The notes under the pieces were generated by a model, which made no database searches, was not told the origin of the DNA, and was given only the letters and a program-made list of their open reading frames with translations. Positions 3,333 through 15,533 of a stretch of DNA of 64,000 nt are shown in pieces; position 1 is the stretch's first letter, and the number at the start of each line of letters is the position of its first letter. The DNA is taken from the NCBI GenBank assembly GCA_031841125.1, contig CM063114.1, forward strand, positions 57,806,955 to 57,870,954, given 5' to 3'. This stretch comes from Acanthococcus lagerstroemiae (Eukaryota; Arthropoda; Insecta; Hemiptera; Eriococcidae). A program made the translations under genes and the position numbers.

Positions 3333-3701
3333 GTTTTGATTGTTGATTTCGGTCGGACTGTCGGCTGGTAGAAATCAAAAACTTGAATTTTAAAATAATA
3401 TTTATATTGTTTGTTTCTTACTCGATAGCGTAAAGTGTTTTTACATAGGCTGTGGCTAAGTAACTGAGACCAAAATTTGTACGGCCCACCAACGCTACCT
3501 ATCGGCGTTTCAACACAGTAAGGGAATAATTTGGTTCATTAGCTATCGATTGAGACCACGCCGAGCTCATTTGATTGAAAACTCGCTGTTCCAGACCAAT
3601 TTGGAAAAAACCATATGCGTTGACCCCTACAGGTTTTTTAAAGATTTTTTTAAAGAAGGAAAAAAGCATACGATTACAAAATTTTTTATTAATTATCATC
3701 T

Positions 3702-3831
3702 TCATTTAAGTCCACGAATATCTTTTTCAAAATAAGCGCCATTCATGGCTATAGAGGCGTCCATTTGTTCTTGCCATTTATCCAACGTTTTCGCGTATTC
3801 AGCCGCCGGTAAGGAGGAGAAAAACATCTGC
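3702..3831 (-). pseudogene. mariner transposase C-terminal fragment, left arm
   Basis: Minus-strand frame of about 42 codons. It contains FFSSLPAAEYAKTLDKWQEQ and then MNGAYFEKD before a TGA. The pattern K-W-x(5)-D-x-C/S-I-x(3)-G-x-YFEKD is the usual C-terminus of mariner/IS630-type transposases. The catalytic DDE/D core is absent. It is a near copy of the right-arm fragment; the cysteine of the right arm is serine here. Confidence 0.7.
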
Positions 3832-3987
3832 ACTATGGTGATGACGTCTAAGAAAATCCCAATTCACCCTTGCCCCCCCCCCATATAGTCCTAACCTCGC
3901 CCGTGCGACTTCTAATTATTTCCTCAACTAAAGGCAGACTTACAGGGTCGTCAGTTCAACACGAATCAAGAAGTCGCATCACTGCGG

Positions 3988-4130
3988 CGCAGATGTTTTT
4001 CTCCTCCTTACTGGCGGCGGAATACGCAAAAACATTCGATAAATGGCAAGAACGAATGGACGCCTGTATAGCTATGAATGGCTCTTATTTTGAAAAAGAT
4101 ATTCGTGTACTTAATAAAGATGATGATTAA
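3988..4130 (+). pseudogene. mariner transposase C-terminal fragment, right arm
   Basis: Plus-strand frame ending in TAA at 4128. It holds FFSSLLAAEYAKTFDKWQER, then CIAMNGSYFEKD, the tail signature of mariner transposases. The upstream part of the open frame (3870-3987) is spacer sequence absent from the left arm and is not transposase-like. Only the last ~45 residues of a ~340-residue enzyme are present, so it is a remnant. Confidence 0.7.
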
Positions 4131-4887
4131 TAAAAAATTTTGTAATCGTATGCTCTTTTTCCTCATTAAAAAAAATCTTTAAAAAACCTGTAGGTGTCAA
4201 TGCATATGGTTTCTTTCAAATTAGTCTGGAACAGCGAGTTTTCAATCAAATGAGCTCGGCATGGTCTCAATCGATAGCTAATGAACCAAATTATCCCCCT
4301 ATTGCGTTGAAACGCCGATAGGTAGCGTTGGTGGGTCGTACGAATTTTAGTTTCAGTTACTTAGTGACAACCTATGTAGTTGGTAACGCGAAAATTAATT
4401 TCGATAGAATACTGAACTTCGTGCCTTATACCAATCTCTTCGGTTATGTCCATGAACCTGAGTCCATGCTCATGGCTCTTACATTTTAGATCACAGTTTT
4501 TAAGCCTTGTCTTTTGGGAGTGAGAGAGAGAAGCCAAGTTTTCTGGTGCGGTGGTAGAGAAATGTATATGAAATAATGTATTACCCGACAGGGGATGGAT
4601 GGAAGCGTTTTCATGGTGAGACAATGACAGCTTGAGCCGTAGGGTAACTGACATCACTTCTTTCATGACTTTGTAAAATGCTGTATAAGAAGAATTCTGC
4701 CACTTTACTTCCTTGATTACCTGCCTCTCACGTGTTCAGTTGAGAAATCAATTTCCTCTTCACCAGTCATTATAATTTCCACATCTATCAAAATATTTTT
4801 CAATTAAGAATTATTTACATTTTAGTTAATGGAATTTTGATTTTAATGTAAGTATCCGAAAATTATGCGCAATTTTTATTTTTCTAG

Positions 4888-4950
4888 AATCAAGGGCCCT
4901 CGTACGCAACCAATCCAAATGTTCAACCGATTACAGAAGCTACCGAAGAA
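4888..4950 (+). CDS. cassette exon A1 of ankyrin gene
   Basis: 63 nt, 21 codons, phase 0 at both ends; acceptor TTTTTCTAG, donor GTATGT. The encoded peptide includes YATNPNVQPITEATEE. First recognisable exon; nothing homologous lies to its left in the window. Confidence 0.8.
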
Positions 4951-5209
4951 GTATGTTAACCATTTACTGCAATATTGGAATCATATATACCTACATTGAT
5001 ATTACTATACGGCCATTGTCTATGATACTATTCAAAATTTTCAGCGCAGGCTGCATTTTTCTAAGTATAAGGAACCCGCTTGATTTCCATGTTAACAATC
5101 TTTAATCGAGGCTAGCCCCCCTACGCGCGCCCTTAAACCAAGTGCCGTGGGGCAAATGCTCTTATGTATATTTAAAAATATTCATCAACATGTGATTATC
5201 TTTTTACAG

Positions 5210-5248
5210 GAAAAAGTGACATATGGCACGAATGGTTATGGAAAACAA
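5210..5248 (+). CDS. cassette exon B1 of ankyrin gene
   Basis: 39 nt, 13 codons EKVTYGTNGYGKQ, phase 0; acceptor TTTTTACAG, donor GTACGT. Confidence 0.8.
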
Positions 5249-5718
5249 GTACGTTAATAGTTCCTAAATTCTTTTATTTGTTTATAATTCACCTGAAATA
5301 TCAAGGAAGATGAGAGTGAGCGCCCATACCTAGCCTGGAAATCTCTGAGTAGAGTAACCGAAAGAGTCTGACCAAGTTCCACACAGTGCAAAATTGAAAC
5401 TCCTGATAAAAAGTTGGTTGTTATCTCTGCCACAGCCCTGAAGCTTTGAGCTGTGCTAGAGAAGGTCTTGGACCCAACAAATGTTGAGTTAGCCACAATT
5501 GTAGGAAAAGATGTGCACATGTTTGCCTGCTACCACTTTGGAAGGAGTTCGTACGGATTTTTTTCTACAAAATGTTGCCAAATTGTACAACTCTTATTTA
5601 AATTTTCGCATCCATCAAAATACATTTTTAAATTAAGTATTTACGATTTAACTAGTGGATTTTCGAATTCGTTATAATATTATGTATTTGAAAATCATAC
5701 AGTATTTTTATTTTCTAG

Positions 5719-5781
5719 AACAAAGGACCTGCTTATCCGACTCAGGCGTATGTCCAACCGGTTACAGAAACTACTAAAAAA
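5719..5781 (+). CDS. cassette exon A2 of ankyrin gene
   Basis: 63 nt, phase 0; acceptor TTTTCTAG, donor GTATGT. Includes YVQPVTETTKK. Same length and frame as A1, with several substitutions and no indels. Confidence 0.8.
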
Positions 5782-5822
5782 GTATGTTTACCATGTACTG
5801 TAACTTATTATTTATATCATAT

Positions 5823-6070
5823 ACTTGCCAGGGAAAAAGGGACCTGAGCGCAAAAATGTAAATTTTACAGGAGAGCAGGTGAGGGGATAAACAAAATTGA
5901 TAACGTTTTCACGTCATGGAGACATTTAACTTTGAAGACTTACAGCAGTCTGGGAAAATTTTTTAGAATTTTTTCGACAACACCATGCGAAAGAGCGGCC
6001 AAAAATTAGTCAAGAACTGTTGTCACAAAAATGATGTTGTCGCGCACAGGTCCCTTTCTTCCTGGCAGGT
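5823..6070. mobile_element. MITE in cassette-2 intron
   Basis: About 248 bp with ~30-bp imperfect terminal inverted repeats: left ACTTGCCAGGGAAAAAGGGA, right end complementary to ACCTGCCAGGAAGAAAGGGA. CATAT occurs just outside both ends, offset by two bases on the right. Absent from the same intron of cassettes 1, 4 and 5. Confidence 0.75.
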
Positions 6071-6080
6071 CACATATGTC

Positions 6081-6491
6081 ACCGTTAATGTGTATAATCA
6101 GTTGAAGTATATAATTTCATTATGATGATCACTAGTTTCTGGCCCTTAATTTCTCCCTGTACAAAGTAATTGGATGAAAATTTTGGAGGTCTTTAATCAT
6201 GGTATTTTTACACAACAATTTAGAATTTCAGCCTGGTTGATTTGGAAGAACGCCTACAAAGGGCTATAAATTGTGAGAATCCAAGACTTTTCATTATTTT
6301 TGGCCTCTGCAATATGTTCTTTGAAGTCGACAGGGCTGAAAAATTCTTAATGAGGTGTAGACAAATGAGAATTATGTACAGATCTTTCTGATTTTCACCC
6401 CGATCCGTCAATAAGAGAATGAATGAAGGGCAGAAAATTAAGAAGTATTTTATAAAATTATACATTTTAACTAATTAAACACATTAACGGT
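6081..6491. mobile_element. second MITE in cassette-2 intron
   Basis: About 411 bp, with ~39-bp terminal inverted repeats starting CCGTTAATGTGTATAATCAG on the left and CCGTTAATGTGTTTAATTAG on the reverse complement of the right end. No coding capacity. It lies between two other MITEs in the same intron. Confidence 0.75.
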
Positions 6492-6498
6492 AACATAT

Positions 6499-7097
6499 CA
6501 GTTTCTATAAAAAGAGGTAACTTTGTCGATCGATTAAAGTCTCAGAAAACGCGAAAAAATAAAAACAAAAATTTTTTGGTCACAAAAATCAGTTTGAGAT
6601 TTTGGTTGATTTCTATAGAAAAAACATCGCAATAACGAAGAGACAAAATCTACGCGCATGAGATAGAAGAGGGAGAGAGAGAAAGAGAATGTGAAAATAA
6701 TGCGAATGTCTGCGTTCGCTTCTCGTGTTTTTTTGGAGCTCACGAATAAATCCGATGTTCTGAATTGTTACCACGCAGAAGAGCGAAAAATTACGTTTCT
6801 AAAAAACCCTCGTCGAGGCTGGTAACGTGATTCCGCGGCGAGTTAGGGCCACTTAACGGAGTGGGAGGAAAAGGTGTGTCTAACTTTAAACACGTTTTTC
6901 CCAAAAACGTGTTTTCGCGCCTTCTCCTTACACTCATCTTTGACCGCTTGTACCTCCGGAATAAAAAACGCTATAAATCTCGCCGATAACTCGTTGGAAT
7001 GGGCATTCATTCCTCTATCACGAAGTATCACGTACTGTCCGTAACTAAAAATTTGTCGGATCAACAAAGTTACCCCTTTTTATAGAAACTGCCACAT
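6499..7097. mobile_element. third MITE in cassette-2 intron; family also at 59439-60009
   Basis: Terminal inverted repeats begin CAGTTTCTATAAAAAGAGGT (left) and, on the complement of the right end, GGCAGTTTCTATAAAAAGGG. The whole ~600-bp sequence is present again in reverse orientation at 59439-60009, which fixes the boundaries. The interior is CpG-rich and palindromic around the CGTTTTTCCCAAAAACG motif near 6893-6911. Noncoding. Confidence 0.8.
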
Positions 7098-7327
7098 TAC
7101 TTATACATAATATTTACCCTAATGATGACTATATCGCCATTCTCAGGGGTATTATTCATAATTTGAGCAAAGGCTTCATTTTTTCCAAGTGTACAGAGAT
7201 GCTCGATTTCCATGTCAAAGATCTTAGTCAAGGCTAGCTCCCCCACCCCCACAAACCGAGTACTGTGGGGCAAATGCCTCTATATATATTTAAAAATCGA
7301 TATCAATATGTGATTTTCTTGTTACAG

Positions 7328-7366
7328 AGAGTAGTACATTATGGTACAAATGGTTACGGAAAACAA
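7328..7366 (+). CDS. cassette exon B2 of ankyrin gene
   Basis: 39 nt, codons RVVHYGTNGYGKQ, phase 0; acceptor CTTGTTACAG, donor GTACGT. Pushed about 1.3 kb away from A2 by three MITEs, yet still open and in phase. Confidence 0.75.
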
Positions 7367-7774
7367 GTACGTTGACATTTCATTAAATTTTTTAGACCAT
7401 TTGTTTATAATTCGCGTGAAATATCAGGAAAAAAGATAAGTGGGTGTGCGTCCATACCTAGCCTGGGAACATCTGAGCACAATGAACCAGAAAGTGTGAG
7501 CCAATTTCACAGAGTACAAAATTCAAACTCGTGATAGAAATGTGGCTATTATTCTCTGCCACAGGCCCTAAAGCCCTTAGCTGTGCATGAGAAAGTTGTA
7601 GATCCTACAAAAGTTGAATAAGCCAACATAGTAGGAAAAGATGTACATAGTTTGCCTGATACTAGTTTGGAAGGAGTTAGTACGGATTTTTTTTTTTTTT
7701 TTACAAAATGTTGCCAAATTGTTTCTCTACCGCTGTCTTCATAGCCCTTACCATGCATTAGGAAGCGTTTGGAT

Positions 7775-8086
7775 CCGGGTTGTGCCCTAAATTTACACAA
7801 GTCTGTCTACGGTGAAAAAATGCGTAAAATAACATCTTAGAATAACTTATGTACAATAATAAAGTTTTTTTACATTTATTCTACATGTGCAGAATAACGT
7901 GTAAAATAACCCGAATTTAAGATTTTCAAGTATTCCAGTTTTCCAGATGACTGCGCGGAGTAATAAAATTGTACATTATTCTACATCACTAAGTTATTTT
8001 ACATTATTTTGCATTTTACACCATTATGCTACATTATTCTACATGTAACGTAAAATAGTTATTTTACGCGTTGAGGAACAACCCTG
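7775..8086. mobile_element. hAT-like MITE in intron between cassettes 2 and 3
   Basis: Left end CCGGGTTGTGCC, right end complementary to CAGGGTTGTTCC. The flanking 8-mers GTTTGGAT and GTTTAGAC match at 6 of 8, and the paralogous empty site in cassette 4 reads GCTTTAGACCC. The interior is rich in GTAAAATAAC / ACATTATTCTACAT repeats in both orientations. Confidence 0.75.
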
Positions 8087-8332
8087 GTTTAGACCCTATG
8101 AATGTTGAGTTTAGCGTAGTCAGAAAAGATATACATGTGTTTGCCTAGTACCAGTTCGGAAGGGGTTAATACAGATTTTTTTAAAGAAAATGTTGCCAAA
8201 TTGTGCAACACTCATTTAAATTTCCGCGTCCATCAAAATATATTTTTTAATTAAGTATTTTTACATTTTAACTGGTGAATGTTCGAATTCGATGTACATA
8301 TTTGAAAATGATACAGTCTTTTATTTTGCTAG

Positions 8333-8395
8333 AATAAAGGACCTGCTTATGCTACCAACGCAAATGTTCAACCGGTTACAGAAGCTACTGAGAAA
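8333..8395 (+). CDS. cassette exon A3 of ankyrin gene
   Basis: 63 nt, phase 0; acceptor TATTTTGCTAG, donor GTATGT. Includes YATNANVQPVTEATEK, the copy closest to a consensus of all five. Confidence 0.8.
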
Positions 8396-8508
8396 GTATG
8401 TCTGCTATTTACTGCACTATTTGTATCACAGATACTGCACTGATAATTACTATATGGCCATTCTCAGTGATACTATTCATAATTTTCAGCGCAGCCTGTA
8501 TTTTTCTA

Positions 8509-9045
8509 AGGTCGAACTTCCATATAACGTAGTGCCAAGGGTACAAGGTCTTAGTTCGTTACATAGAATTTTTGTTTTACAGTACACCAACAAAACAGTG
8601 TAGTACAAAGTACATAGCTATTGATCGAGATGTACCACTAAAGGAGATAAGCTCTAATGTCTCATTGCACCAGAGCATTAGTAGCTTCGTCGTAAAAATG
8701 TTCTGTTTTATTAAAATTTTGTAGAACTACAGTCATCGATGCGCTGACGCCCGTCTCTAACATTTTCGTAAATTCTAAATATCTTTCTTTCGCATTCCAC
8801 TGTCGACATTTTTTACTATAGGTAGTCACTTACTCAGACACATCAACACATTTTCTCTTCAATATGGTTGGAAAAATTCGTAAAAGTGAACGATAGCACG
8901 AGAATTAATGCTTCTTGAGTGAAAAATAGTTCGTTAAATAGAAATTTTTATCGTTGTATAGAACACATTTTCTTGTGAAAATTTCAAGGGACCAGGAAAA
9001 TATTCGTTGTGTAGAGACTTTCGTTATAATATGGAAGTTCGACTG
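8509..9045. mobile_element. pogo-like MITE in cassette-3 intron
   Basis: 537 bp flanked by TA dinucleotides (8507-8508 and 9046-9047). Ends are AGGTCGAACTTCCATATAAC and the complement of CAGTCGAACTTCCATATTAT. A TA duplication with a CAGTCGAAC-type terminus is characteristic of pogo-related elements. No transposase frame. Confidence 0.75.
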
Positions 9046-9189
9046 TATATTATAGAAAATGTTTGATTTCCATTTCAAAGATCTTTGTTGAGGCTAGCTC
9101 TTCTTTTCCGTAAACCGAGTGCTGTGGGGCGAATGCTCCTATGTATACTTGAAAATAAATGACGTTACTACTCAATTATGTTGTTACAG

Positions 9190-9234
9190 GAACATCAAGA
9201 CGTGACATATGGTACGAATGGTTATGGAAAAAAC
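9190..9234 (+). CDS. cassette exon B3 of ankyrin gene
   Basis: 45 nt, codons EHQDVTYGTNGYGKN, two codons longer than B1; phase 0; acceptor TTGTTACAG, donor GTACGT. Confidence 0.8.
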
Positions 9235-9378
9235 GTACGTTGATTATTCATTTAATTCTTTAGATTATTTGTTAAAATTCGTCAGAAATATTACGTAAGA
9301 AGATAAGGGGGTGTATGTCTATACCTAGCCTGGAACCTTTGAGCACAGTAAACCAAAGAGTATGACCCAAGCTTCATA

Positions 9379-9881
9379 GGCGGGGTAACCTAGAGTTTCC
9401 GAAGTTGGTAGCCCTGTGCTACAAAGGTGATCTTGGACGTTATCACCATAAGAATGCATATAACTTGAATTCGATTTTTCTAGTCAATAATATGTTTTCT
9501 TGTGGCTTATAGTAAATAAATTTAGAGATTGAGGTCTCTAGTTTTCCTTTATGAACTTGAAACGGCTCCATTTTTCATGTATTAGTTTCTTACAAGCGCG
9601 TCGTTTTGTACCAATGGTAAATTTTCATAAGAAAAACAGTAATTTGGAAATTAACTTAATTCATCCAACTACAGCAAATGAAGTGCATTAAATTACCTTT
9701 CATGATGAACTAGAGACTTCAAGCTTTAATTTGACGTGTTATATGACTCAAAAAAACCTATTTTCAGCAATTACGGAAGCTTTAAAGTATACCAACTTTA
9801 CACGTCTTCTTATGGGAACATCAACCTCGATCACCTTTGCAGGAGGTCGACACTAGCGAACCTGGTCACGGTTACGCCGCT
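9379..9881. mobile_element. MITE with long terminal inverted repeats in cassette-3/4 intron
   Basis: About 503 bp. Ends are GGCGGGGTAACC and the complement of AGCGGCGTAACC, with strong pairing continuing ~75 bp inward (for example CAAAGGTGATC...CCATAAGA). Cassettes 4 and 5 show the uninterrupted intron around a ...TAGAATTCAAAC... phrase. Confidence 0.75.
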
Positions 9882-9991
9882 AATAGAGTGTAGAATTCAA
9901 ACATGTGGTAGAAATTTGGCTACTGTTCTCTGCTGCTGGCTTGAAAGCCTTTACCTTTGCATGAGGAAGCTTTAGACCCTATGAATGTTGA

Positions 9992-10356
9992 ATGGGCGCG
10001 TTTTCTTTGACGTCACAAATGCGCTTATCACGCAACAGCACGCAATTTTGTTGGCTGATTATAATTATAACAAGGGGACCTGGGTTGAATATGTGATGCT
10101 TGTAGTCTTGAAGTACACATTCAGTACATTACGGGAATATATTGCAAATTCTTATCTTCTTCTCCATTTCTGAAATATTTGCAAAATAGTAGAACGATAT
10201 TTTCTCTTATGGTAAATTCAGGGTAAAGAAAAATTGTTTACATTTTCCTTGGGCCAGCCTGCAGCCTGCAGCCAACACAATTGCGTGCTGTTGCGTGATG
10301 AGTGCGTACGGTTGCCTAATAAGCGCGTTTGTGACGTCAACGGAAAACGCGCCCTT
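9992..10356. mobile_element. MITE, GGGCGCGTTTTC family, in cassette-3/4 intron
   Basis: About 365 bp. The termini start GGGCGCGTTTTC on both strands and pair over 60-90 bp, including TTGACGTCACAAA and CACGCAACAGCACGCAATT words. The paralogous empty site is visible at about 11210 (GTTGAGGTAACCTGCATAG). Noncoding; the frames inside are by-products. Confidence 0.8.
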
Positions 10357-10608
10357 TAACCAGCATAGTAGGAAAAGAGATGTACAGACATTTGCCTAGT
10401 ACCACTTTGGTAGTGATTAATACAGAATTCTTCATACAAAACGTTGCCAAATTGTACAACACTCATTTAAATTTACGCATTCATCAAAATGTATTTTAAA
10501 ATTAAGTATTTTTACATTTTAACTAGTGAATTTTGAAATTTGATGTATCTACATATTTGAAAATGATATCGTATTTTTATTTATTTATTTATTTATTTTT
10601 TTTTTTAG

Positions 10609-10671
10609 AATAAAGAACCTGCTTCCGCGACTAGGGCATATGTCCAACCAGTTACTAAAGCTCCTGAGGAA
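10609..10671 (+). CDS. cassette exon A4 of ankyrin gene
   Basis: 63 nt, phase 0; acceptor TTTTTTAG preceded by a (TTTA)n tract that serves as pyrimidine-rich region; donor GTATGT. Includes YVQPVTKAPEE. Confidence 0.8.
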
Positions 10672-10922
10672 GTATGTTTACTATTTACTGCAATATTGGT
10701 ATCATATAACGTACACTTATACCATATGGCCATTCTTAGTGATATATTATTCATAATTTTCAGCGCAGGCTGCATTTTTCTAAGTACATGGACAATACTT
10801 GATTTTCATTTCAAAGATCTTAGTCGAGGCTAGTCCTGCACCCCTGCAGAACGAGTGCCGTGGGGCAAATGCTCTTATGTATATTTAAAAATATTTATCA
10901 ATATGTGATTATCTTGTTACAG

Positions 10923-10961
10923 GAAAAAGTAACATATGGCACAAATGGTTATGGAAAACAA
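10923..10961 (+). CDS. cassette exon B4 of ankyrin gene
   Basis: 39 nt, EKVTYGTNGYGKQ, amino-acid identical to B1 despite silent changes; phase 0; acceptor TTGTTACAG, donor GTACGT. Confidence 0.8.
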
Positions 10962-11331
10962 GTACGTTGATAGTTCTTAAACTCTTTGAACTATTTATTA
11001 AAATTTGTCTGAAATATCAAGGAGGAAGCTGAGGGAGTGAACGCCTATACCTATAGCCTAGAAATTTCTGAGCAGAGTAACCTAAAGAGTGTGACCAAGT
11101 TTCATGGACTGTAGAATCCAAACATGTGGTAGAAATTTGGCCACTGTTCTCTGCTGCTGGCTTGAAAGCCATTACCTTTGCACGAGGAAGCTTTAGACCC
11201 TATGAATGTTGAGGTAACCTGCATAGTAGGAAACGAGATGTACATACGTTTGCCTAAGGGTTAATACAAATTTTAACTCGATGTACCTACGTATTTGAAA
11301 ATTATATGTAGAATATTTTTATTTTTTTTAG

Positions 11332-11394
11332 AATAAAGAACCTGCTTCCGCGACTAAGGCATATGTTCAACCGGTTACCGAAGCTACTGAAGAA
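11332..11394 (+). CDS. cassette exon A5 of ankyrin gene
   Basis: 63 nt, phase 0; acceptor TTTTTTTAG, donor GTATGT. Includes YVQPVTEATEE; nearest relative is A4. Confidence 0.8.
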
Positions 11395-11643
11395 GTATGT
11401 TTACGATTTACTGCAATATTGGTATCATATATACGTACACTGATGACTGATATTATTATATGGCCATTCTCAGTGATACTGTTAATAATTTTCAGCGTAA
11501 GCTGCATTTTTCCAAGTATATGGAAAATACTTGATTTCCATTTCAAAGATCTTAGTTGGGGATAGCCCTCCACCCTCGCAAACCAAATACTTTGGGGCGA
11601 ATGCTCCTATGTATACTTGAAATGCGTAATTATTTTGGTACAG

Positions 11644-11685
11644 GAACATCATATAACATATGGTACAAATGGTTATGGAAAGAAC
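11644..11685 (+). CDS. cassette exon B5 of ankyrin gene
   Basis: 42 nt, EHHITYGTNGYGKN, phase 0; acceptor TTGGTACAG, donor GTACGT. Its phase-0 end joins directly to the phase-0 start of the ankyrin exon after a 996-bp intron. Confidence 0.8.
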
Positions 11686-12681
11686 GTACGTTGATAATTC
11701 ATTAAATTCTTTACATTATTTGTTAAAATTCGCCTGATATTCGAGGAGAAAGATGAAGGAGTGTGCTCCCATGCCTAGCCTGGAAATCTCTGAGAAAGTG
11801 AATCAAAGAACCTGACCCAAGTTTCACGGAGCGTAGAATTCAAACTCGTGATAGAAATTTGGCTCCTGTTCTCCGACACAGACCTTAACACCCGCACCTG
11901 TACATAAGGAAGCGTCGAAGAGGTCACATGGAATAGGAGTTCTCTTTGTAATGGGAACGACTGCAGAGCCCTGCAAATGTTAAGTTAGTCAACAAAGTAT
12001 GAGTCGATGTACATAAATTTGCCTGATACTTGTTTTGAAGGGGGTCAGTATTTCTTTAAAATATTGTCATTTTCCCAACTGGGTGTTTTGTCTTATCTCC
12101 GTTACTTCCTTCCCAGATGATCGTTGAGGAGGTAATTACCTAATTACTTTCTTCCTTAAAGAAGAATGTGGTTAGTTCTCTCCCAGCATCATCGTGTAAA
12201 GAGTGTCTGAAAAATGTTGCTTACTGAAGGCTAAACCGATTAAATATGATGAACTTAAGTACAATTTAAAGAAGATTTTTTTACCGCCAGCTCATAATTT
12301 TCCTGGAATACTTACTAAAAATTGTAAATTTTTTTTTAAAATGAAAACTCGGGCCGAGAATGTTTTTGCCCGAGACTTTTTTCAGTACAACTGATTACTA
12401 ACGAAAACTCAATTGTATCGCGCAGATACCCTGAAGTAAAGCTTCGCTCAGATTCATAGAAACTCTTACCACGTTCACCAGTGTGTTCAAGAAATGTTCA
12501 AGTACACAAAATTTCACAGTAAATCTTAATCATGATTTGAGATGTAGGGCGGGCAATTAAGGAGTTAGTGATCTGGGATCTTGTCAAAGAATTAGCTAGC
12601 GGACAATGCGGTTTTCTATATTCCCCATGAGTGCGGGGAACACATCAAAGTAACACTAATAACCTAAGTCGTATGTTTTAG

Positions 12682-14952
12682 ACAAGTCCATCTACGCGAA
12701 CGACCGTGGCTTGGGATAATTTACTGGACGCTGCTCAAAACGGCGATCTAGAGGCGGTCAAGTACTACGTAGAAAAAGGTTCCAACATCGACGAGCGCCT
12801 CTCCGGGAGCAACGAAACGCCACTTTGCAAAGCCGCTCAAGCTGGTCACTTCAGAGTCGTTCAGTACCTCGTCAGTAAGAAAGCCTCTGTAAACCACAAA
12901 GGTAAGTGGGGCTACACTCCTCTGCTCTGGGCTGTAGATTCGAACAATGCCAAACTAAACATTATACAACTGCTCGTTGACAATGGCGCCAACTTGGCCC
13001 AAAAGGACACAAAGAAGGGCTACACCGCCTTGCACTGGGCCGCATACAACGGCCGACTTGACATTGTGAAGTACTTCGTCGAGAAAGGTGCCGAAATCAA
13101 TTCTAAAACCAAGACGGGCGAGACGCCCTTCATTTTCGCCGCCAAAAATGGCCACTCGGACGTGGTCGCCTACTTCATAGACGAGCTGGAGGTCCAGTAC
13201 GACGGCAACATTTTCAGCGCTTCTTCCAGCGGATACCTCGGTCTGGTAAAGTACTTCATCGACATCAAGGGTCAAAGTGTGAACTCGAAAACCAGCTCGG
13301 GTCGCACTGCCTTACACAAGGCCGCGTTAAATGGCCGCCTCAATGTGGTGCAGTATTTGCTCGCCGAGAAAGGAGTTGACGTCGAGCAAAAAGATAACGA
13401 AGATGCCACCCCCTTGATCACAGCCGCCATTAATGGTCACATTGACGTAATCAAATATCTGGTCCAAGAGCACAATGCGAATATCCATGCGCAGAACCGA
13501 CAGAAGTACGACGGTCTGCTGTGGGCCTCTTATAACGGCCACCTGAACGTGGTCAAGTACTTGATAGATCAGGGGGCCGATGTCAATGTGAAGAACGATC
13601 ACGATGACACGCCTGTGCTGCGGGCTGCTTTCAACGGTCACTTGGACATCGTCAAATACCTAGTCGAGGAGAAAAACGCCGATTACAATGAAAAAGGATA
13701 CGGTGGCTTTACATCTCTGCAGAATGCCGTCTACAATGACCACCTGCAGGTAGTGAAGTATTTGGTCGGAGAGAAGAACGCGGACGTGGAAATTAAAAAT
13801 ACCGGAGGCTTCACCGCCTTGCACGTGGCTGCGTCCAATGGTCACATGCGCATAGTCAGATACCTCGTCGACGAAGCCAAAAAAGCGGACTGTTCCGCCA
13901 AGACTAACAATGGCAGCACTCCTCTACATCTGGCCGCTGCCAACGGTCATTTAGAAGCGGTTAAATATTTTGCTAACAAGAACAAGAATGGCATCGACAT
14001 ACAAACGAACAAAGGCGATACTCCGTTGCACTTGGCCGCCGCGTATGGTAACCTCGAGGTTGTGAAATACCTGGTGGATGAAAAAGAAGCCGACGTGAAC
14101 GCGAAAAATCATACCGACGACACGCCTCTGAATCGGGCCGCCTATTACGGTCACTTGGACGTGATCAAGTATCTCATAGACGAATACGCCGACATGAATG
14201 TGAAAGGAACTGATGGAAATACTATTCTGCACAACGCTGTTTCAGGAGGTCATTTGGACGTAGTCAAGTATCTAGTAAACGAGAGAAAAATTAAAGTCAA
14301 TGCGAAAAACGATAACGGTAATACTCCTCTGACAGAAGCCATCAACGGAGATAAGACGGACATAGTCAAGTTCCTGGAAAGCGCCGAACCGTCACGTCGA
14401 ACTCGATATCGTCGCGGTGTCGAGAACCCAGGACAAGGTGGAGACGATGAGATGACCAACAATTCTCAAAGTTTGCTCGAAGGGAGCAGCACCACTCAGA
14501 GTACAGCTACGAATGCGGCCACTAGGTCTTCGTTTTTCATCAGCGGCATCGCTAGTTGGCTTAAAAATTCGATTTCAGGGTTCTTGCTCCCGGCTACCGA
14601 CCATCTGACCAAACAACCAGAAATTGGTGGTTCGTTTGTCGACGGAATTCTAATTCTACTTGACGTAGGCGTGCGCAAATTCATAGGCAATAAGTACCAG
14701 CGACCGGTACACGAATCCTTGTTATCTCCACAAGCGCTTATAGAAAGAAAATTCGATCAGAATGCTATTGACATTATCCATTTTGTAGAATGTTACGATA
14801 GAAAGTATATTGATGATATCCAAGCCGTAGACAGACTACAGCTTTCCGTTTTGAACAGCAGCGTTGTTGGCGAAAACCTAGTTGGCTACGGATTTGGTGC
14901 TGAAAGCGCGCTCACTAGCAATGCGGCCCCTGGTGTATCGATCAGTCTATGA
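12682..14952 (+). CDS. terminal exon: 17-ankyrin-repeat protein with latrotoxin-like C-terminal layout (5' end of gene missing)
   Basis: The exon is open from the acceptor GTATGTTTTAG to TGA (756 codons). An in-frame TAG (12679-12681) ends exactly at the acceptor, and the first possible start is a GTG at 12706, so translation must enter by splicing. Counting residues from that GTG, about 17 ankyrin repeats of 29-36 residues span 1-563 (TPLHLAA, GHLDVVKYLV signatures); the fifth and sixth are the least regular. R-Y-R-R at 567-570, preceded by R-R-T, fits the furin consensus R-X-R/K-R. A polar linker follows (571-607), then a hydrophobic segment near 608-628 (FFISGIASWLKNSISGFLL) and a C-terminal domain with VDGILILLDVGVRKFIG (645-661). 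Ankyrin arrays bind proteins; the partner is unknown. The repeat array plus cleavable tail recalls latrotoxins and latrotoxin-like endosymbiont proteins, suggesting possible lateral transfer, but this rests on memory and layout. The frame is intact amid decayed DNA and clearly more GC-rich than its surroundings. Confidence 0.85.
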   Translation, partial: TSPSTRTTVAWDNLLDAAQNGDLEAVKYYVEKGSNIDERLSGSNETPLCKAAQAGHFRVVQYLVSKKASVNHKGKWGYTPLLWAVDSNNAKLNIIQLLVDNGANLAQKDTKKGYTALHWAAYNGRLDIVKYFVEKGAEINSKTKTGETPFIFAAKNGHSDVVAYFIDELEVQYDGNIFSASSSGYLGLVKYFIDIKGQSVNSKTSSGRTALHKAALNGRLNVVQYLLAEKGVDVEQKDNEDATPLITAAINGHIDVIKYLVQEHNANIHAQNRQKYDGLLWASYNGHLNVVKYLIDQGADVNVKNDHDDTPVLRAAFNGHLDIVKYLVEEKNADYNEKGYGGFTSLQNAVYNDHLQVVKYLVGEKNADVEIKNTGGFTALHVAASNGHMRIVRYLVDEAKKADCSAKTNNGSTPLHLAAANGHLEAVKYFANKNKNGIDIQTNKGDTPLHLAAAYGNLEVVKYLVDEKEADVNAKNHTDDTPLNRAAYYGHLDVIKYLIDEYADMNVKGTDGNTILHNAVSGGHLDVVKYLVNERKIKVNAKNDNGNTPLTEAINGDKTDIVKFLESAEPSRRTRYRRGVENPGQGGDDEMTNNSQSLLEGSSTTQSTATNAATRSSFFISGIASWLKNSISGFLLPATDHLTKQPEIGGSFVDGILILLDVGVRKFIGNKYQRPVHESLLSPQALIERKFDQNAIDIIHFVECYDRKYIDDIQAVDRLQLSVLNSSVVGENLVGYGFGAESALTSNAAPGVSISL

Positions 14953-15527: not shown

Positions 15528-15533
15528 AATAAA
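15528..15533 (+). promoter_or_regulatory. candidate polyadenylation signal AATAAA
   Basis: First clear AATAAA downstream of the ankyrin-gene stop, giving a 3' UTR of roughly 0.6 kb. Motif only. Confidence 0.35.

Follow-up and report, generated by a model that had tools for sequence, protein, structure and literature searches.

The CLANK genes of Nasonia and other chalcid wasps are dispersed and diverged, contain introns in almost all cases and encode a Wolbachia-type C-terminal domain (PMC6161386). In prophage WO, the latrotoxin C-terminal domain (CTD) comes directly after furin-type cleavage sites, and at least one of the genes described also has ankyrin repeats (PMC5062602). The latrotoxins of the house spider have 6-25 ankyrin repeats (PMC5314461), and a conserved hydrophobic helix has been described in the latrotoxin C-terminal domain (PMC3482391). 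Besides spiders and endosymbionts, a few insect sequences have been reported to carry tails of the latrotoxin type (PMC5062602, PMC4174608), and Halyomorpha halys has both latrotoxin-like transcripts (PMC4174608) and secreted salivary ankyrin proteins (PMC8207144). Here we analysed a 64,000-nt stretch of DNA from Acanthococcus lagerstroemiae (assembly GCA_031841125.1, contig CM063114.1, positions 57,806,955 to 57,870,954; hereafter the window), in which ten small exon-like units, or cassettes, lie upstream of a long intronless ankyrin exon. The locus is compared with these systems as they appear in excerpts of the cited papers. No description of such a family was found in the literature at the level of titles and abstract openings.

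The best explanation of the locus, with a probability of about 0.58, is that the gene did not arise by a fresh fusion between host and bacterium but belongs to an old family resident in this genome, of which it is an elaborated copy, with the ankyrin exon predicted to be spliced to ten micro-exons that were found at this locus only.

Architecture of the ankyrin exon and its cassettes

The 756-codon frame of the ankyrin exon opens at position 12682, directly after an in-frame TAG, and the terminal exon ends at 14952 (12682..14952, 756 codons plus stop, phase 0; all features given here are on the forward strand). Its first ATG is codon 389, at position 13846, and the exon therefore needs upstream exons. 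The predicted intron in front of it (11686..12681, 996 nt) ends in the in-frame TAG as its acceptor. Pfam matches above cut-off on the ankyrin-exon protein were to ankyrin-type models, and a structure model computed from an eight-sequence alignment contained 17 helix pairs at residues 14-568, mostly with a predicted local distance difference test (pLDDT) score >90. Pfam and the structure model together place 17 ankyrin repeats at residues 13-568 (12718..14385). Between this array and the tail lies a furin-type site, RYRR (residues 575-578, 14404..14415), and the conserved part of the tail covers residues 611-710 (14512..14811).

Upstream, between positions 4888 and 11685, five A units of 63 nt alternate with five B units of 39, 39, 45, 39 and 42 nt. 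All ten units have AG before them and GTATG or GTACG after them, are divisible by three in length, are free of stop codons and are in phase 0. The predicted micro-exons are A1 (4888..4950, phase 0-0), B1 (5210..5248), A2 (5719..5781), B2 (7328..7366), A3 (8333..8395), B3 (9190..9234), A4 (10609..10671), B4 (10923..10961), A5 (11332..11394) and B5 (11644..11685), the last of which carries the final cassette donor upstream of the ankyrin exon. Each A exon has 21 codons, and B1-B5 have 13, 13, 15, 13 and 14 codons in that order. The encoded peptides are cysteine-free, and the cassettes total 173 codons, which with the 756 codons of the ankyrin exon give the product of at least 929 residues that had been predicted. 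The original prediction of ten splice-ready phase-0 units, of a 17-repeat ankyrin exon opening in phase 0 right after an in-frame TAG and of no ATG nearby was thus recovered from the sequence in full.

A position-weight scan of both strands of the window and 10 kb upstream detected the same five A and five B units only, with no near scorers. The A matrix scored 101.7-113.9 on the A units and <= -5.3 elsewhere, and the B matrix 54.6-60.5 on the B units and <= 8.0 elsewhere, where the cassettes' own scores are high by construction because the matrices were derived from the ten cassettes themselves. In the coding frame, the proportion of synonymous differences (pS) exceeded that of nonsynonymous differences (pN) both in the A exons (0.450 versus 0.153) and in the last 33 nt of the B exons (0.362 versus 0.106). 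Four alternative frames gave a weak pS excess in one case and the reverse in three, and two of the four contained stops. The silent excess in the coding frame is beyond chance and shows, as far as sequence comparison goes, a coding-like constraint on the cassettes.

Identity between the cassettes was 0.776 and 0.794 in the exons and 0.675-0.746 in the flanking introns. Since the introns are homologous too and exon identity is only modestly higher, whole two-exon segments appear to have been duplicated. The closest pairs were discordant, being A4-A5 for the A halves (83.8 percent) and B1-B4 for the B halves (89.0 percent), which suggests gene conversion or unequal exchange between cassettes. 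Inverted repeats with arms of 37-66 nt were observed in the cassette introns at window positions 6074-7100 and 9979-10368; the uneven spacing of the cassettes may be partly due to them.

The order of parts in the ankyrin exon resembles that of the latrotoxins of widow and house spiders, which likewise have an ankyrin array, a cleavable C-terminal part and tandem genomic clusters (PMC5314461, PMC3482391). The 17 repeats fall within the latrotoxin range of 6-25 (PMC5314461), and the predicted RYRR site lies, as in latrotoxins, between the array and the C-terminal part. However, the N-terminal region of ~300 residues that precedes the repeats in latrotoxins is missing, and the exon has no room for it because the repeats begin at residue 13; in its place the predicted cassettes would contribute 173 residues made up of short repeats. 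Latrotoxin genes are also largely intron-less, whereas the first 388 codons of the window's ankyrin exon lack an ATG and its acceptor is common to 18 relatives. Because the N-terminal region, the intron-poor structure and the C-terminal Pfam model Latrotoxin_C are all unmatched, we do not file the gene as a latrotoxin despite its latrotoxin-like order of parts.

Strings of small equal-phase exons are also a feature of aphid bicycle genes, whose internal exons are almost all in phase 2 (PMC9168663). In contrast, the cassettes are in phase 0, are cysteine-free and lie upstream of a 2.3-kb ankyrin exon. Since the exon phase differs, the window gene is not a bicycle gene.

A gene family with a common splice acceptor

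The window sits in a contig of 59.8 Mb (C9) in a genome of 658 Mb and 438 contigs. The ankyrin exon has at least 145 matching stretches in this genome, including itself (144 others), and several of them often lie in one frame. Thirteen other stretches, on contigs C3 (six), C5 (three) and C8 (four), extend to residue 699 or beyond and so into the tail. The nearest relatives found were in the same genome (51 percent identity over 539 residues), and the highest identity among the best 120 database homologues was 45 percent. Many further long ankyrin frames were seen on contigs C2, C4 and C6, matching only the repeats among the matches listed.

Twenty relative stretches with long frames were examined, and the exon start was readable in 18 (L025, for example, has no readable start). 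A phase-0 YAG acceptor was present at the exon start in all 18, in three of them as TAG, as in the window exon; relative L023 kept the acceptor and has an early stop. Across the window, a YAG preceded by a pyrimidine share >=0.64 occurs at 0.7 percent of positions. Because all readable relatives share the phase-0 YAG acceptor, the intron upstream of the ankyrin exon is a family trait.

Cassettes were sought in the same genome. In tblastn, the ten cassette peptides gave a best E of 0.21 against 19 upstream regions of relatives (3.9-8.7 kb). A genome-wide DNA search with 425 bases of cassette returned six places, every one inside the cassette locus. A degenerate B-peptide motif returned 17 places, of which the five exact ones were all at the cassette locus and 12 had two mismatches; the same motif written backwards as a control gave 20 two-mismatch places, so that nothing elsewhere rose above background. 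These searches are blind to copies that lie further upstream of the relatives or are too diverged. As these searches gave nothing above background outside the cassette locus, the cassettes are unsupported as a family trait and are likely a later addition to one family member. Since the relatives have the acceptor and their upstream regions lack a cassette match, the intron is older than the window copy and the cassettes are probably younger. The proposal that a host cassette array gave a newly transferred or retro-copied ankyrin frame its 5' end is not supported.

All 15 tail rows, 13 of them distinct, have a furin-type site before the tail, and an R-x-[KR]-R site precedes the repeats in six of 19 exon starts, a count that includes the window's exon start, which is not among the six. 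In relative L026 (C5:16621500-16631400, exon from 6813), two tandem Thr/Pro/Lys-rich repeat copies lie within the exon before the ankyrin array; this is a predicted second, differently made repetitive N-terminal arm in the family. Relatives L019, L022, L023 and L024 appear broken, with an early stop or split frames. Because some relatives look broken, copies in this family seem to be gained by duplication and lost by decay.

The family parallels the CLANKs, a resident insect family of dispersed and diverged ankyrin genes with a Wolbachia-type C-terminal domain (PMC6161386), and has a different tail. The multi-copy family and the intron acceptor, which are traits of the CLANK type, were both observed in the same genome. 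Unlike the window gene, CLANKs carry or derive from a PRANC-type C-terminus (PMC6161386), and Pfam detected none in the window protein or in 11 tail rows. Micro-exon cassettes are not mentioned for CLANKs in the excerpts of PMC6161386.

The tail and its Wolbachia and latrotoxin relatives

A tail profile made from the family only (15 rows, 13 distinct) was searched against 122 proteins. The first hits were P0002 and P0015, which look like members of the same family. They were followed by Wolbachia of Agelastica alni (43.9 bits), P0048 (39.5 bits) and the viral contig L037 (33.8 bits), and lower down by P0059 (28.3 bits) and Wolbachia of Pentalonia nigronervosa (21.2 bits). These alignments show that the tail is homologous to the tails of Wolbachia ankyrin proteins. 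Eight of 11 tail rows matched phrog_9049 (4700 positions, function unassigned), and in the one row for which the alignment was given in full, it lay near the end of that profile. Pfam and NCBIfam gave the 11 tail rows single-row matches only and no match in common. A second scan of viral contigs found no relative. The sole match of the tail scan in bacterial genomes, L035, was put down to chance, since there is a bacterial gene opposite it in the contig, which is from a metagenome-assembled genome (MAG).

A mixed profile of Wolbachia and family tails reached delta-latroinsectotoxin (E=7.1e-5) and alpha-latrotoxin (E=0.0043) (7pty, 9go9). A version that had two more rows, of which one was cut, gave 1.4e-6 and 0.015. 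P0080 is missed by the tail-only profile but was nevertheless part of alignments A2 and A3; alignment A4 contained neither P0080 nor P0048. P0059 and L037 have ankyrin repeats and Pfam Latrotoxin_C, and the family profile overlaps the Latrotoxin_C model only in the model's first 25-30 residues. These matches suggest that the front part of the conserved tail is homologous to the latrotoxin C-terminal region. The tail stretch shared with latrotoxins includes a hydrophobic helix-like segment, which in our own reading of the alignment would be the conserved hydrophobic helix of latrotoxins. Of the two links drawn in the original prediction, the one to endosymbiont ankyrin proteins is thus borne out by the tail, and the one to latrotoxins stands for the front part of the tail and fails for the Latrotoxin_C model. 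Among the Wolbachia and viral-contig tails, two types were observed, one with Latrotoxin_C (P0059, L037) and one without it (P0111, P0048); the latter has an H-E-[SN]-L-L-S-like motif that is common to the animal family.

The window protein has ankyrin repeats, as does at least one of the latrotoxin-CTD proteins described in prophage WO (PMC5062602), and like these proteins it has a furin-type site before a homologous tail. Unlike those proteins, it shares only the front part of the tail, without a Pfam match to Latrotoxin_C, and it is encoded in a 59.8-Mb animal contig behind a spliceosomal-type acceptor rather than in a bacterial or prophage genome. The Halyomorpha halys proteins are likewise insect-encoded and have endosymbiont-like ankyrin or latrotoxin-type regions, and some of them are in the salivary-gland secretome. 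Unlike the window gene, both latrotoxin-like Halyomorpha halys transcripts are without ankyrin repeats (PMC4174608), and the excerpts of PMC4174608 and PMC8207144 do not mention a cassette array. Together, the tail comparisons suggest that an old exchange with endosymbionts, in either direction, is likely, and that the long-resident family is possibly derived from bacteria.

Gene model, alternatives and predicted product

Phase-matched splicing of the cassettes to the intronless ankyrin exon, as first predicted, is still the simplest gene model. A less likely but still substantial alternative is that the locus holds two genes: a micro-exon gene made up of the cassettes and a terminal exon at some other place, and an ankyrin gene whose large exon is spliced to a 5' exon of its own. 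The 996 nt between the last cassette and the acceptor are consistent with this arrangement, as is the finding of a start exon for neither part in a search of ~22 kb, and the relatives must use other 5' exons because their 19 upstream regions have no cassette match. However, the last donor and the ankyrin acceptor are on the same strand with matching phases, and the B motif has no further genomic copy above background.

It is considerably less probable that the cassettes stem from a tandem duplication that is non-coding or in decay, and that the ankyrin exon is a pseudogene. The near-equal similarity of cassette introns and exons and the broken appearance of some relatives would fit such decay, but all ten cassettes preserve the frame, are stop-free and share in the in-frame excess of silent differences, and all 756 codons of the ankyrin exon are open. 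The most improbable explanation is a recent lateral transfer or retro-copy of the ankyrin frame to a place 3' of a host cassette array, which then captured it. The array is intronless, its exon has a GC content of 0.489 compared to 0.365 and 0.347 in the flanks, and the tail is homologous to Wolbachia proteins, all of which speak for it. Yet many diverged relatives share the intron position and phase, and the nearest ones found belong to this genome itself, at a higher identity than the best of the 120 database homologues listed. The explanation was rejected in view of this diverged resident family with a common acceptor.

Several results weigh against our preferred reading of an old family member spliced to its own micro-exons. 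The exon starts of the relatives were placed by eye at a YAG, and the pyrimidine tract of the window exon is moderate (0.57), as it is in four relatives. The tail has a pLDDT <50 over nearly its whole length in the structure model. Latrotoxin_C did not match the window protein or the 11 tail rows, even at E<=10, nor did it match P0111, P0027, P0002, P0015 or P0048. The family profile spans ~70 residues of P0059 and L037, of which just the last 25-30 are within Latrotoxin_C. A family-dominated tail profile failed to reach latrotoxin, and since only the mixed profile does so, the latrotoxin link is partial and transitive. Single-sequence searches of a large collection with the tail gave nothing at E<=10, and searches of phage records gave chance-level matches only. 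The tail tree, from which two duplicate rows were dropped, is unrooted with weak deep support, and does not settle the direction of transfer. A phase-0 signal-peptide exon was sought in ~22 kb and none was found; a signal-peptide-like frame at position 2582 has a good donor in phase 2, which is incompatible with A1. Two other signal-peptide candidates in the ~22 kb were dropped as read-throughs into B exons. A signal-peptide exon shared by the family was also considered, and the candidates seen in some relatives were dropped as they are not conserved between relatives.

Under the reading of a long-resident family with a locus-specific cassette array, the family would go back to an ancient exchange, in either direction, with endosymbionts of the Wolbachia type or with the phage of these. 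In the window member, two upstream exons would have been tandemly duplicated to five A-B pairs, whose copies later exchanged sequence. The transcript would, in the simplest model, run A1-B1-A2-B2-A3-B3-A4-B4-A5-B5 into the ankyrin exon. Whole cassettes could be skipped with the frame kept, because every cassette is in phase 0. The predicted precursor would consist of a repetitive cysteine-free N-terminal arm, a partner-binding ankyrin solenoid and the tail, and a furin-type protease may cut off the tail at RYRR, by analogy with the maturation of latrotoxin precursors. The product would probably be secreted or freed when cells break down, for instance those of a gland. This is the weakest step since no usable signal peptide turned up, and the idea of secretion is a guess drawn from latrotoxins and from the ankyrin proteins of the stink-bug salivary secretome (PMC8207144).

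A more speculative and rather unlikely extension is that an ankyrin gene of endosymbiont type, with a tail like that of latrotoxins, has been in the animal genome for a long time and there grew its own tandem exon array and thereby a host-built spliceable adaptor on a domesticated effector of bacterial style. If this were true, splicing would vary the length of the N-terminal arm in one-cassette steps and leave the toxin-like body untouched. 

Beyond this extension, repeat growth at the level of exons, as in the cassette array, would be unusual for a gene of this kind. In addition, the genome appears to contain a resident family whose related tail lies behind a conserved acceptor, on several chromosome-sized contigs, and this makes the question of the domain donor testable within one animal lineage. 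The gene would also be comparable to the arthropod chimeras of horizontal gene transfer (HGT), which join transferred and host-derived coding sequence (PMC13389597). The large survey of such chimeras removed ankyrin repeats as a confounder (PMC13389597), so genes of the window type may have been excluded by its design, and such families may be under-counted.

Ten other long frames of the window gave no Pfam match at E<=0.01. The first AATAAA after the stop codon of the ankyrin exon, at 15528..15533, is a candidate poly(A) signal by its motif. Upstream of the cassettes, two segments at window positions 3444-4381 recur upstream of relative L027 with 91 and 89 percent identity, and resemble a dispersed element.

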